The translations under genes and the position numbers were made by a program. From positions 1 through 31,282 of IMG/VR virus record IMGVR_UViG_3300037520_000528: a DNA stretch of 31,282 nt, one strand, 5' to 3'. The notes beneath the pieces were generated by a model. The model was not told where the DNA came from. It worked only from the letters and a program-made list of their open reading frames with translations, and searched no databases. The stretch is from a virus. Below, in pieces: positions 9,264-31,203 of the stretch; position 1 is the stretch's first letter, and each line of letters starts with the position of its first letter.

Positions 9264-11360
9264 GTGGCTATTCTCGAAATTAAAATACAAGAAAAAATCA
9301 TTGATTTATACGATGAGGAAAGAATCGTGCAATCTTTTTCATTGATTAACATTGAAGATATTACCAAACGAGAAAGCGAATATTCAAACACATTTAAAGT
9401 ACCAAGAACAAATAATAATTTACAGGCTTTAGATTATATTGATTTTCTAAATTCAAACTCTTTACTCCCTTATTCTCGTTTAGATTGCCAAATTTTAATT
9501 GATGGCTTTTTATTCAAAAAAGGTTTTATTTCAATTGAAAGTATTGAAGAGGATATTACTTTACAGTTTTATACTGGAAACGCAGGATTCTATGAAATAA
9601 TAAAAACAAAAGAATTATCTGATATAAATACAGATAACACACCAAGTTTAGAAACTACTTGGAGTTTAGCAAATGTTATTTCAAAAAGGACTGCAAGTGA
9701 AGGTTTATTTTTTCCAATGATTGATTATAATGGAATGCCGACAGCATCAAGCTTAGTTGATGTACGTTTATTATTGCCTTCATTTTATCGTAAAACTTTA
9801 ATAGAAGCTATTGTTGAAGATGCTGGTTATACTTTAATTAACAATATAGGTACAGACACAATAGATGCTTATAATCACGATATAATACCAACAGCAACAA
9901 ATAAGCTTTATAATGACCAAAATACAATTGATGCTAACTTTTATAAAGGTGTTGATAATTATAGAAACAGAAATTTAAGTGTAGCAACAAAAGAATTTAC
10001 AGCACCAGTAACAACCTTTGATTTATCTTATACAGGTTTTGATGTATTTAAATTTGATTTTCTTGAAGGAAATGAGAATACATTTACAAACGTTCCAAAT
10101 GGCAGAAGTTATTTTACTTCAAACGTTGCAGGTGATTATAATGTAAATATTAATTTTAATATTAGTGCAGTAAATACTTTTAGATGGGGTAACTATGCCA
10201 ACACACAGGACATTCCAAGATTCATTGCAAATACTACAATAAGATTTTATTTAAGAATAGGAAATAGAGAAGTTCAATTTCATCAAATAAATAATAACTT
10301 TGAAAATCCAGCTAATATAATAGCACCTTATATTAATTCAACTTTTAGTGATGTAATAAACTATTCAGGAAAAATAAATGTTAATCAAGGTGAACAGGTT
10401 AGTATTCGAATAAATGTATCATGTGTATTTGCGGATTCTGATGTTACATACGCACCTATTGGAAATGTGCGTTCTAACGTTTTAGTTCAATGTGCAAAAG
10501 GTGATACCTTTGAAATAAAGTTAGCTGATAGTTTAGCATTTAACGGAATTGTTAATCCTGCAGGTTGTTTAAGAGGAATAAAACAAAGTGAATTTTTAAA
10601 AGACACTTTGATAAGATATTGTTTAATTCCAATTGTAGATGAGGATAATAAAAAAGTTACTTTATTTGAATTTAACCAAATTAAAGACAATATTACAAAT
10701 GCAGTTGACTGGAGTGGAAAATTAGATGAAACAAATGAAAAGGAATTAACTTTTAAAATTGATTCTTACGGTCAAAACAATTACTTAAATCATAAAGAAG
10801 ATAAATTTGTTTTACAATTACCACAAGGAAGTAATGGAGTTATTACAATAGGAAATCAAAACTTAGAATTAAATAAGGATTTATATGAAAGTCCTTTTGC
10901 AGCAACAGAAACAGTATTAAGGTTAAATGGAAAAAAAGTTATGTATATTAATTTACATGATGGTGTTTCTTTAACAACAACAGAAAGTTTTAAAAACGAT
11001 GTGCAGCCAAGAACAGGTTATACATCAAAAGAAAATTTCACAGTAACTTATACTGATGGAATTACAAGCACAATTGTTTCAACTGATATTCCATTAACAT
11101 GGTTCATTGATAGTGCTAAAAATTACAACGGGGGCTTTCAATACTTATTAGATTATTCAATTGACTTAATAGCTATTTTACAAAATTTAAAAGTAGTAAA
11201 AACAGATATTAGGTTAAATATTTTGGATATTATAAACTTAAATTATTTTTATCCTATTTACATTTCAGAGTTCAATTCATATTTCTTTTTAAGCAAAATA
11301 AATCAATTTGACTATACTTCTAATGAAAGTACAAAGGTTGAATTAATTAAATTAAACTAA
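9264..11360 (+). CDS. Large tail / baseplate hub-like protein
   Basis: 698 residues, starting with GTG two bases after the previous stop; an ATG at 9262 is in another frame. The N-terminus (I-L-E-I-K-I-Q-E-K-I-I-D-L-Y-D-E-E, then I-T-K-R-E-S-E-Y-S-N-T-F-K-V-P) is characteristic of a large Bacteroidota phage tail protein group. The rest is beta-rich with many Asn/Thr residues, including a central receptor-like stretch (about 255-400) that lacks charged catalytic clusters. It sits directly before the tape measure gene, opposite to the order common in lambda-like phages, where hub genes follow. Role as tail hub or baseplate is inferred from size and place. Confidence 0.6.
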   Translation: MAILEIKIQEKIIDLYDEERIVQSFSLINIEDITKRESEYSNTFKVPRTNNNLQALDYIDFLNSNSLLPYSRLDCQILIDGFLFKKGFISIESIEEDITLQFYTGNAGFYEIIKTKELSDINTDNTPSLETTWSLANVISKRTASEGLFFPMIDYNGMPTASSLVDVRLLLPSFYRKTLIEAIVEDAGYTLINNIGTDTIDAYNHDIIPTATNKLYNDQNTIDANFYKGVDNYRNRNLSVATKEFTAPVTTFDLSYTGFDVFKFDFLEGNENTFTNVPNGRSYFTSNVAGDYNVNINFNISAVNTFRWGNYANTQDIPRFIANTTIRFYLRIGNREVQFHQINNNFENPANIIAPYINSTFSDVINYSGKINVNQGEQVSIRINVSCVFADSDVTYAPIGNVRSNVLVQCAKGDTFEIKLADSLAFNGIVNPAGCLRGIKQSEFLKDTLIRYCLIPIVDEDNKKVTLFEFNQIKDNITNAVDWSGKLDETNEKELTFKIDSYGQNNYLNHKEDKFVLQLPQGSNGVITIGNQNLELNKDLYESPFAATETVLRLNGKKVMYINLHDGVSLTTTESFKNDVQPRTGYTSKENFTVTYTDGITSTIVSTDIPLTWFIDSAKNYNGGFQYLLDYSIDLIAILQNLKVVKTDIRLNILDIINLNYFYPIYISEFNSYFFLSKINQFDYTSNESTKVELIKLN

Positions 11361-16515: not shown

Positions 16516-17082
16516 ATGGCAACAAATTGTAATGACTTAATAAGCGGAATAAATCCAGCATGTGACGCACTTAATAAAGTAGGTGGTGTTAATAAGCGTG
16601 TTTGGATTGGCTTAAAAGGAAATATTACTTACACGAAAGATTCTAATGGTTATGTAAATACTGTTAGTATGGGTACTGTAGGTTCTTTACCTTCTAAACT
16701 TTATACATTCACAGGAAAACGTGATAAAAATTCTTTTGCATTTCCTTTAACTGCAGGTGAAAACATTAATACATTTAATCACCAAGCTATGATGGCATTG
16801 TATTATTCAACACCTTCAGAACTTGAAACACTTAATCAATTAGCAAATGCTGATGATGTTGTAGTTTTCATGGAAGGAAATGATTCTAAAATTTATGTTT
16901 TAGGTTTAGATAAAGGATTAAATGCAACAGCTGGTGAAGGTGGTTCAGGAATATTGTTAAATGATTCAACTGCTTACATGATTACTTTAAGCGGTGAACA
17001 AACAACTGCACCAAATATCTTCAGAGTAAATGCAGCTGCAAGTTTAGCAACAAACCAAGCTTACTTAGACGCTTTAACATAA
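16516..17082 (+). CDS. Virion protein next to capsid, tail tube candidate
   Basis: 188 residues with N-terminus A-T-N-C-N-D-L-I-S-G-I-N-P-A-C-D-A-L-N-K and a beta-rich remainder (R-V-W-I-G-L-K-G-N-I-T-Y, L-Y-T-F-T-G-K-R-D-K-N-S-F-A-F-P-L). The acidic, Gly- and Ala-rich C-terminal part ends T-N-Q-A-Y-L-D-A-L-T. The same type of protein follows the capsid gene in related Bacteroidota phages and is probably abundant in virions. I favour a tail tube; a head decoration protein is the main alternative. An intrinsic terminator directly after it closes the head operon, which fits a highly expressed structural protein. Confidence 0.55.
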   Translation: MATNCNDLISGINPACDALNKVGGVNKRVWIGLKGNITYTKDSNGYVNTVSMGTVGSLPSKLYTFTGKRDKNSFAFPLTAGENINTFNHQAMMALYYSTPSELETLNQLANADDVVVFMEGNDSKIYVLGLDKGLNATAGEGGSGILLNDSTAYMITLSGEQTTAPNIFRVNAAASLATNQAYLDALT

Positions 17083-17103
17083 TTGATAAAATTAATTATT
17101 AAG

Positions 17104-17128
17104 AGCCTCACATTAGTGGGGCTTTTTT
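17104..17128 (+). terminator. Intrinsic terminator after the tube-like gene
   Basis: Stem AGCCTCAC / GTGGGGCT (eight pairs, one G-T wobble) with loop ATTA, followed by TTTTT. It closes the head transcript, 22 bases after the stop of the gene at 16516-17082. Confidence 0.8.
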
Positions 17129-17131
17129 ATT

Positions 17132-17139
17132 TATATTTG
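17132..17139 (+). promoter_or_regulatory. Possible -7 promoter element before the HAD/glycosyltransferase block
   Basis: TATATTTG matches the Bacteroidota TAnnTTTG consensus and lies just after the terminator and 18 bases before ATG 17158. No TTG is found at the proper -33 distance. The location, between a terminator and a new gene set, is the main support. Confidence 0.4.
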
Positions 17140-29730: not shown

Positions 29731-29985
29731 ATGAAAGTAACAATTACAGTAACAGAAAAAGTAAAAAAAGAAATTGAAATACAATTTCCTTATTACACAA
29801 AAAGCGATTACAGGTTCTATAAATTTATTGATGAAAATACTTGCTTAGAAGTTTATAAAGGCATTACTGATTTCTCAATTGATTTCAGTCCTTATAAAAC
29901 ATTCGCTTTACCTTACGAACCTTCAACAGCTGAAGAGTTCAACACTAAATTTAACATTGTAAAATCTTTAATCGAATCATTATGA
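29731..29985 (+). CDS. Hypothetical protein (84 aa), first gene of a new transcript
   Basis: 84 residues: N-terminal strand with alternating charged and hydrophobic residues (K-V-T-I-T-V-T-E-K-V-K-K-E-I-E-I-Q-F) and an aromatic, acidic middle (Y-Y-T-K-S-D-Y-R-F-Y). No membrane or enzyme motif. It is the first gene of the block driven by the promoter at 29678-29707 and overlaps the next gene (ATGA at 29982). Function unknown; possibly early or moron-type cargo. Confidence 0.6.
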   Translation: MKVTITVTEKVKKEIEIQFPYYTKSDYRFYKFIDENTCLEVYKGITDFSIDFSPYKTFALPYEPSTAEEFNTKFNIVKSLIESL

Positions 29986-30293
29986 ATAACGCAAATCAAA
30001 TAGAACTCAATAATAACCTTGAATATTGGTACGGGTTCATAGATGCTAACTTAGTTCACTACAACCGAATAAATATAAGTAATGTTAGCTTAGATAATAC
30101 AACAATGGAAATGTTTATAACTGATATAGAAACTCACTTTTGTTTTGACTTCTATAAAAAAGGTCAGGTTGTAGGTAAGCATAAAATTTACATTGGAAAT
30201 AACCAGCTTGAGTTTGATTGGAACTTACAATTCAGTCAGGAACTTATTAAAATGTTTAAAAGCATTGATGTTAAAAATCAAGTTATATTATAA
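29982..30293 (+). CDS. Hypothetical protein (103 aa)
   Basis: 103 residues, with N-L-E-Y-W-Y-G-F-I-D-A-N (about 12-23) and two strand segments (E-T-H-F-C-F-D-F-Y, K-H-K-I-Y-I-G-N). Coupled to the previous gene. Its stop codon TAA at 30291-30293 lies inside a motif (TTATAACG at 30288-30295) that forms the edge of an attC-like element. Function unknown. Confidence 0.6.
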   Translation: MNNANQIELNNNLEYWYGFIDANLVHYNRINISNVSLDNTTMEMFITDIETHFCFDFYKKGQVVGKHKIYIGNNQLEFDWNLQFSQELIKMFKSIDVKNQVIL

Positions 30294-30385
30294 CGTTTTG
30301 CAGCTAACAGAAGTGGCTGCTTAAATAAAACTTCAATTTATAAACCAATGCTGATAGCAGCCATTTTTGTTAGGTGCTGTTATAA
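30288..30385 (+). repeat. attC-like imperfect inverted repeat
   Basis: An element with arms TAACAGAAGTGGCTGCT (30305-30321) and AGCAGCCATTTTTGTTA (30356-30372): seventeen pairs with two G-T wobbles, separated by a 34-base AT-rich spacer. The right edge is GTTAGGT (30369-30375), an exact match to the integron core GTTRRRY; the left is AGCTAAC (30302-30308), one mismatch from RYYYAAC. Total 74 bases between cores, within the range of attC sites. Outer TTATAA / TTATAA flank it. It lies between two unknown small genes. Alternatives: a bidirectional hairpin terminator or operator. Confidence 0.5.
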
Positions 30386-30403
30386 GCTGTAAAAATTACG
30401 ATT

Positions 30404-30670
30404 ATGGATTTAAGACTTCATTCGACAGACAAAATTAGATTGGTAACTGGAAGTAGCAAAAATAACTTTATTGATTGCTCATCAGAATATCAAGAGATGG
30501 CACTAACTGTTTCTTTTTTATGCTCACAAACATATATGGAGATAAGAAAAAAGGCTAATCAAGTAAAGACTTTCTACTTTGAAAGTAAAAGGCATAAAAA
30601 AGAATTTGATTTCGGATACTGGGATGATGCAGAAGTTATTTTTGCGTTTAACGAGGTAGTTCACAAGTAA
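30404..30670 (+). CDS. Hypothetical protein (88 aa), possible cassette gene
   Basis: 88 residues, charged and soluble (N-terminus M-D-L-R-L-H-S-T-D-K-I-R-L-V-T-G, C-terminus E-F-D-F-G-Y-W-D-D-A-E-V-I-F-A-F-N). It is flanked by the attC-like element upstream (19 bases between) and a copy of the TTATAACG motif eleven bases after its stop, so it stands alone as a one-gene unit with its own spacing. No family recognised. Confidence 0.6.
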   Translation: MDLRLHSTDKIRLVTGSSKNNFIDCSSEYQEMALTVSFLCSQTYMEIRKKANQVKTFYFESKRHKKEFDFGYWDDAEVIFAFNEVVHK

Positions 30671-30680
30671 TTTTTATTGC

Positions 30681-30695
30681 TTATAACGGTTTGCA
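30681..30695 (+). repeat. Second copy of the TTATAACGkTTTGCA motif
   Basis: TTATAACGGTTTGCA differs in one base from TTATAACGTTTTGCA at 30288-30302. Both directly follow a stop codon, or nearly so. This copy has no matching right arm, so it looks like a partial or degenerate element. Confidence 0.5.
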
Positions 30696-30744
30696 AATAG
30701 GCTTAGTTTTTAGGTAAAATAATAACAATAAAATAAATTTATAT

Positions 30745-30915
30745 ATGAGAAAATGGACAGAAAAAGAAGATAAACTTATTATTGAGTTTGCTGAAAAAAA
30801 TAAAAATCACATTCGCAATGGATTTAAACAATTATCTACAATTATAGATAGAAGTAGCGAAGCCATTGTGAGTAGATTTTATAATAAATTAAATAAAATA
30901 AAACCTAAAAATTGA
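30745..30915 (+). CDS. Myb/SANT-like DNA-binding protein (56 aa)
   Basis: A 56-codon ORF too short for usual gene callers. The product R-K-W-T-E-K-E-D-K-L-I-I-E-F-A (2-16), then G-F-K-Q-L-S-T-I-I-D-R-S-S-E-A-I-V-S-R-F (26-45) has the Myb/SANT three-helix layout: W-T-x-x-E-D at the first helix, then an R-S-x-x-A-I-x-x-R recognition helix. Small Myb-like proteins occur in Bacteroidota phages, probably as regulators. It has an A/T-rich leader. Confidence 0.65.
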   Translation: MRKWTEKEDKLIIEFAEKNKNHIRNGFKQLSTIIDRSSEAIVSRFYNKLNKIKPKN

Positions 30916-30958
30916 GCTTATTTGCTGTTAGTTTTTAGTTTAATTTAAAGTTTTAATT

Positions 30959-31159
30959 ATGACACCAAAAGAAAAAGCATTTAGTTTATATTTTAAATAT
31001 ATTAGGGATGTAATTGCTGATAACAAAAAAGCGAAACAATGTGCTATAATTGCAGTTAATGAAATAATTTTAGCAAATCCACATAGTAATCCTTTTTATG
31101 AAGTATATTCAACTATGGATTATTGGATTGAAGTGAAATTAGAAATAGAAAAACTTTAA
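30959..31159 (+). CDS. Small helical phage protein (66 aa), paralogue of the gene at 5588
   Basis: 66 residues with K-Q-C-A-I-I-A-V-N-E-I-I (about 25-36) and a Y-W-I-E-V-K-L-E-I-E-K-L ending, shared with the 57-residue protein at 5588-5761. The type is common in Bacteroidota phages; function unknown. It is soluble, mostly helical and lies downstream of the Myb-like gene. Confidence 0.7.
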   Translation: MTPKEKAFSLYFKYIRDVIADNKKAKQCAIIAVNEIILANPHSNPFYEVYSTMDYWIEVKLEIEKL

Positions 31160-31186
31160 ATTAAATTGAAACTAACTTACATCTTT

Positions 31187-31203
31187 GCGCTAAAATATAG
31201 CGC
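31187..31203 (+). promoter_or_regulatory. Inverted repeat GCGCTA-N5-TAGCGC
   Basis: A perfect six-pair palindrome with a five-base spacer in the gap between the 66-residue gene and the last ORF. It could be a repressor operator or a small terminator (followed by CTTATTT). A TTG (31166-31168) and CATCTTTG (31180-31187) overlap it, but their spacing is too short for a standard promoter. Confidence 0.45.

Follow-up and report, generated by a model that had tools for sequence, protein, structure and literature searches.

The window, meaning the whole stretch of 31,282 nucleotides analyzed here (IMG/VR virus record IMGVR_UViG_3300037520_000528, positions 1 to 31,282), carries two complete cassettes, 30292-30687 and 30685-31176, flanked by conserved phage genes. 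The features of this region are the following (a slash within a sequence marks a junction).

29982..30293, + strand: conserved phage gene of 103 aa, flanking the insertion site and outside the cassettes; its stop codon falls within TATAAC, and it has 45 relatives in viral contigs.
30289..30294, + strand: left recombination box TATAAC, of R-box type, on the host side of the insertion and common to empty and filled sites.
30292..30381, + strand: attC-type hairpin of cassette A (AAC...GTT), fold z -5.4, with relatives elsewhere.
30379..30399, + strand: start of cassette A, which pairs with its own end at 30667-30687 (21 nt, 90%).
30404..30670, + strand: cassette A gene, 88 aa, no assigned function, with a 91% match in L012/L013.
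30667..30687, + strand: end of cassette A, GTAATTTTTATTGCTTATAAC, complementary to the cassette A start.
30685..30929, + strand: attC-type hairpin of cassette B, spanning 245 bases; its arms, 30693-30715 and 30903-30925, are 87% complementary, and an ORF lies in the loop.
30745..30915, + strand: Myb-like DNA-binding ORF, 56 aa (PF13921, E 4.7e-7), wholly within the loop of the second hairpin.
30959..31159, + strand: cassette B gene, 66 aa, no assigned function (phrog_21441).
31174..31189, + strand: right junction AAC/TTACATCTTTGCG, the last box and the start of the conserved flank, which is promoter-like for the next gene; the same flank is found in filled and empty relatives.

The inverted repeat that the initial annotation described at 30288-30385 is present at that position. 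As single-stranded DNA, its + strand folds with -21.2 kcal/mol (the z of -5.4), and none of 200 shuffles was as good; as RNA the same strand has a z of -6.4, and the minus strand a z of only -1.2. The helix extends past the arms first proposed, with TATAAC(G) at 30289 pairing with GTTATA at 30379 outside AGCTAAC and GTTAGGT, and four unpaired bases form a bulge on the left arm only. AGCTAAC and GTTAGGT had been taken for the recombination cores, but they form the inner stem, which is an L''/L' stem of the attC type; the actual boxes are TATAAC (30289-30294) and GTTATAA (from 30379), and the junctions described below rule out the former pair as boxes. An AACG...GTT hairpin alone is not rare, since a loose scan for AACG-stem-GTT elements gave 2 in the window against 0.69 per shuffled window and at least 2 in 13 of 100 shuffles, so the case depends on comparison. 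Two things set the window hairpin apart from chance: the end of each unit is complementary to its start, and about 80 other viral contigs show the same arrangement. An Rfam search of the window gave nothing useful, with two sub-threshold hits that are apparently chance. At 16945-17134 there is a sub-threshold match to STnc100 (E 0.0086, under the gathering score), probably a chance match.

The exact left arm of the hairpin was found in nine viral contigs. Viral contigs also contain 85 stretches with the pattern TATAACGKTTTGC-N20-50-GCNGTTA, most but not all of which have real stems. The matches are intergenic, with constant ends, a very variable inner stem and divergence directly after GTT. 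Among the cassette genes, the recurrent recognizable match is to DNA methyltransferases, and most have no assigned function.

The limits of the mobile unit can be seen in relatives of the 103-aa gene. Most of the 45 viral-contig relatives share the downstream gene as well, and the region between both was compared. Two contigs, L117 and L127, have no insert and read AAGTTATATTATAAC/TTACATCTTTGCG (also given as TTATATTATAAC/TTACATCTTTGCG). Filled sites are found in 23 records, including the window, with 17 distinct inserts (our count from the junctions) whose terminal AAC has TTACATC or a closely similar sequence directly behind it. In L112-L114, L132 and further relatives, the site is absent or unrelated genes lie there. 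Empty and filled sites join at AAC, giving a crossover at AA/C (G/TT), the exact base within AAC being indistinguishable from sequence. In 15 of the 17 inserts, the last unit has an end that is complementary, at 8-11 of 12 positions, to bases following a GTT within that insert; L109 and L125 are the exceptions. The inserts of these two are bounded by AAC at the same site, have no recognizable hairpin at the left end and are either decayed or of another type.

Units from this site also occur in other contexts. For example, the L110 unit is present whole, AAC to AAC, in the array contig L066 (93% over 743 bases), the L133 unit in L047/L042 (81%), and most of the L133 cassette in the integrase-bearing L218 (87% over 194 bases). 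The homology of the cassette A gene with L012/L013 spans GTTATAAGC to GCTTATAACG, and the hairpins on either side differ. A cassette gene at the same phage site in L105 (1319-1921) encodes 200 aa with a possible methyltransferase motif (NPPY) and has no Pfam match. The empty sites, along with the varied inserts that have the same junctions, bear out the earlier suggestion that the window holds a captured cassette. As judged from these comparisons, the mobile unit is a hairpin, the gene downstream of it and the terminal AAC, which means that the classical reading direction is the minus strand. The classical unit, a gene followed by its attC, was rejected because a variety of hairpins occurs behind the same upstream gene, and no hairpin at the empty site. 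A search of annotated phages with the window's end gave nothing useful.

In a classical integron, the R boxes are fully paired only in the circular cassette. The corresponding prediction is that the bases after the GTT of hairpin i pair with those before the AAC of hairpin i+1 and not with those before hairpin i. In 253 units, this pairing scored 8.81 out of 12. Shuffling the partners lowered the score to 4.66, with 4.88 as the highest value in 200 shuffles, and comparing the left and right sides of a single hairpin yielded 4.69. Related phages are among the sources of these units, which are therefore not independent. In fixed register, cassette A of the window pairs at 10/12 and cassette B at 8/12. 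Pairing of a unit's own start with its own end is what the folded attC model would predict. When circular sites were reconstructed, the ORF strand gave the better fold in 146 of 148. At position 8 of these circles, the start has a G in 131 of 148 and the end a T in all 148; this G-T combination can wobble-pair on the ORF strand but is mismatched on the opposite one. The phage sites have 3-5 unpaired bases on the left arm and 0-3 on the right, compared to 5 and 6 in the class 1 aadA1 site, and the unpaired central spacer that aadA1 has on both arms is absent from them. With regard to extrahelical bases in L'', a one-sided bulge and a recurrent G-G mismatch were seen. Among units with a clear ORF, 181/189 have it oriented towards attI. 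The pairing, the AAC junctions and the inner stem support the initial reading of an attC-type site, and the window elements are very probably integron-type cassette sites, with 30292-31176 a two-cassette array.

The window has no tyrosine recombinase, as was observed at the outset, and some array contigs encode one of about 265-290 aa. A search for the family gave 80 loci, 64 of which had at least 1 kb upstream and were used for the hairpin count. Same-strand hairpins lie upstream of the recombinase in 61 of the 64, at 1.43/kb compared to 0.025/kb downstream. For the recombinase family, 328 same-strand hairpins were counted, whereas Markov sequence gave 12 and the opposite strand 9; these loci come from related metagenomic phages, so the counts are not independent, and the hairpin scan was designed after the first examples, the pairing test being separate from it. 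For 53 arrays it was possible to locate where the last cassette ends, and in 50 of them this point is 25-85 bases ahead of where the recombinase match begins. Most of those 50 arrays have AAC and then a TATTATATATA-like sequence about 50 bases 5' of the recombinase gene. We infer that this AAC/TATTATATATA-like sequence is an attI-like site with attI function, and the layout in these phage contigs reads as integrase, attI and array. The likeness of the window site AAC/TTACATC to the phage attI is limited to AAC. Among the recombinase-bearing fragments, 15 of 50 records contain terminase and 16 of 49 (0 of 14 control genomes) contain major capsid genes of T4 type, so many of them are phages, and several of the phages exceed 250 kb.

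The closest cultured-phage relative of the recombinase is 41% identical (50,697 records). The catalytic residues R132, K157, H216, R219, H242 and Y251 are invariant in 42 sequences, and the K-to-H distance is 59 residues compared to 106 in IntI1. The IntI-specific additional domain is absent from the phage recombinase, with the matches to TIGR02249 and 2a3v split in two parts. The TIGR02249 score is 148-171 bits, under the 265-bit cut-off, and the best profile is XerA NF040815 at 165-195 bits (cut-off 220). The predicted fold (pLDDT 84.7, pTM 0.60) has 5hxy (XerA) as its top match and the Vibrio integron integrase 2a3v as the next. The phage system is thus said here to work like an integron, and its enzyme is not called IntI because it has no IntI-specific domain, scores below the IntI cut-off and is nearest in fold to XerA and the Vibrio integron integrase. 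From the XerA/NF040815 recombinases, its nearest by profile and fold, the phage family differs by its linkage to cassette arrays and an attI-like site.

One could consider the cassettes as bacterial, inserted by a host chromosomal integron and carried passively by phages that contribute nothing to the process, especially as recombinase relatives lie on Bacteroidota chromosomes, some with similar arrays, and the window phage has no integrase. However, the narrower form TATAACG...GTGCKGTTA has one match among the 84,980 species of a genome collection, in a Bacteroidota MAG where three of these elements lie in tandem, compared to dozens in viral contigs. A pattern scan of 395 Bacteroidota genomes found the pattern about as often as its reversed control, with real stems noticed only in G001 and G293, and an integrase and an attI-like site are present on the phage contigs themselves. 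Passive carriage therefore seems unlikely to us, and there is a fair probability that the phages encode their own active integron system of this variant. A transposon or MITE that is bounded by terminal inverted repeats and mobilized by a transposase of the DDE or Y1 type would explain why cassette start and end are inverted repeats and why AAC at both junctions resembles a 3-bp duplication, but it is highly improbable, since the insert includes a hairpin outside the inverted repeats, the units follow one another in the same orientation, each with a single AAC, and the enzyme linked to the arrays is a tyrosine recombinase, with a conserved site where the array ends. The strong RNA fold and intergenic location would suit a transcription terminator or RNA-processing hairpin between phage genes, a reading with very little left to it: terminator prediction made no call at the hairpin, which is not a stem with a T-run behind it at a fixed position, its sequence varies with the inserted gene and is missing from the empty site, it lies 5' of the gene it moves with, and empty sites with exact AAC junctions refute this as its main role. 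The case of a terminator conserved at a fixed site, named beforehand as contrary, is likewise excluded by the empty sites and by the differing hairpins at one site, and the hairpin may attenuate transcription as a side effect. Counting against the integron reading are the spacer geometry, an integrase without classical features, a window without an integrase and a window insertion site that shares no more than AAC with the phage attI.

With classical integrons, both class 1 and sedentary chromosomal, the phage system shares a tyrosine recombinase, an adjacent attI, tandem cassettes with palindromic sites, AAC/GTT boxes and one strand that folds better. In classical cassettes, start/end pairing reaches past the box (PMC2727003), as it does in the phage system. 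Unlike them, the phage sites have a one-sided bulge of 3-5 bases and conserved G-T wobbles and no two-sided spacer, and the phage ORFs run towards attI, whereas those of class 1 run away from it. In class 1 integrons, taken as a yardstick, intI1 and the cassette genes are on opposite strands. The additional domain that the phage recombinase lacks is an IntI feature (PMC9668308). Spirochaete-type integrons with reversed intI (PMC9668308) have integrase and cassette genes in the same direction, as in the phage system; the difference is that the phage attC sites keep the classical direction with respect to the integrase, whereas the ORFs are turned round. As cited in PMC12901181, insertion of integron cassettes at non-classical genome sites, termed attG, is known (Loot 2024); there, likewise, a GTT site away from the integrase is used, as with TATAAC/TTACATC, and here one phage site is reused.

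Phage-borne attC sites are already known. Qi et al. 2023 (PMC9892861) described attC clusters (CALINs) in phages and found that IntI1 recombined 5/6 tested sites; one predicted attC site of the Polaribacter phage P12002L recombined with attI1. This cultured lytic phage (L235) has several hairpins of the present type on its gene strand, around methyltransferase genes at 32224-40948, and the Qi 2023 coordinates are unmatched to them. The clusters in such phages were reported as integrase-less, with directions read as divergent, and a phage integrase-attI of this family was not described. A literature search, with preprints and most subscription journals outside its scope, found only Qi 2023 and general work on phage or Bacteroidota integrons of this kind; on this weak evidence, a phage integrase-attI-array of this type is apparently undescribed.

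In the IntegronFinder 2 survey, complete integrons are very rare in Bacteroidetes, with one named in Bacteroidetes proper, Salinibacter (PMC9024848). A homologue of the phage recombinase is present in 87 of 296 Bacteroidota genomes at E 1e-40. Recombinase relatives with attC-like arrays downstream, often 345-375 aa, were seen in the Bacteroidota genomes L278, L281, L282, L284, L285 and L290. In these arrays, the hairpins follow the genes and pairing scores reach 11/12. They are possibly overlooked Bacteroidota integrons. A phage-like layout was seen in L271 (Bacteroidota; recombinase 9617-10402), where the array lies 5' of the recombinase and shares its strand.

The locus is best explained as follows. 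The array was very probably inserted in trans at one site (TATAAC/TTACATC) of a small tailed phage, each cassette comprising an attC-type hairpin, one or two short genes and a terminal AAC. In an excised circle, the hairpin would be completed by the cassette's own end and start. An Xer/IntI-type tyrosine recombinase, from co-infecting larger phages or the host, would recognize the folded ORF strand and join it at AA/C (G/TT on the other) to attI, another attC or a secondary site like that of the window. The sequences show the units, their junctions, the empty sites, the pairing and the linkage of recombinase, attI and array; we infer single-strand folding in vivo, which enzyme served the window phage, and activity at the present day.

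To our knowledge, integrons are known almost exclusively as bacterial devices. We lean towards the view that large T4-like phages, probably of Bacteroidota, run their own integron lineage. It would be marked by an Xer-like integrase lacking the IntI domain, an attI that is conserved, hairpins with one bulge and a strand bias, and genes oriented towards attI. Small genes of phages would be traded as cassettes, also in trans into unrelated small phages, and sister integrons on Bacteroidota chromosomes would be missed by current surveys. The phage system offers a natural test of whether recombination of folded single-stranded sites really requires the IntI-specific domain and extrahelical bases. 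If true, the phage integrase-attI-array would give phages a dedicated means to capture and trade single genes, and it would account for the mosaic patches of small unknown genes in phage genomes.
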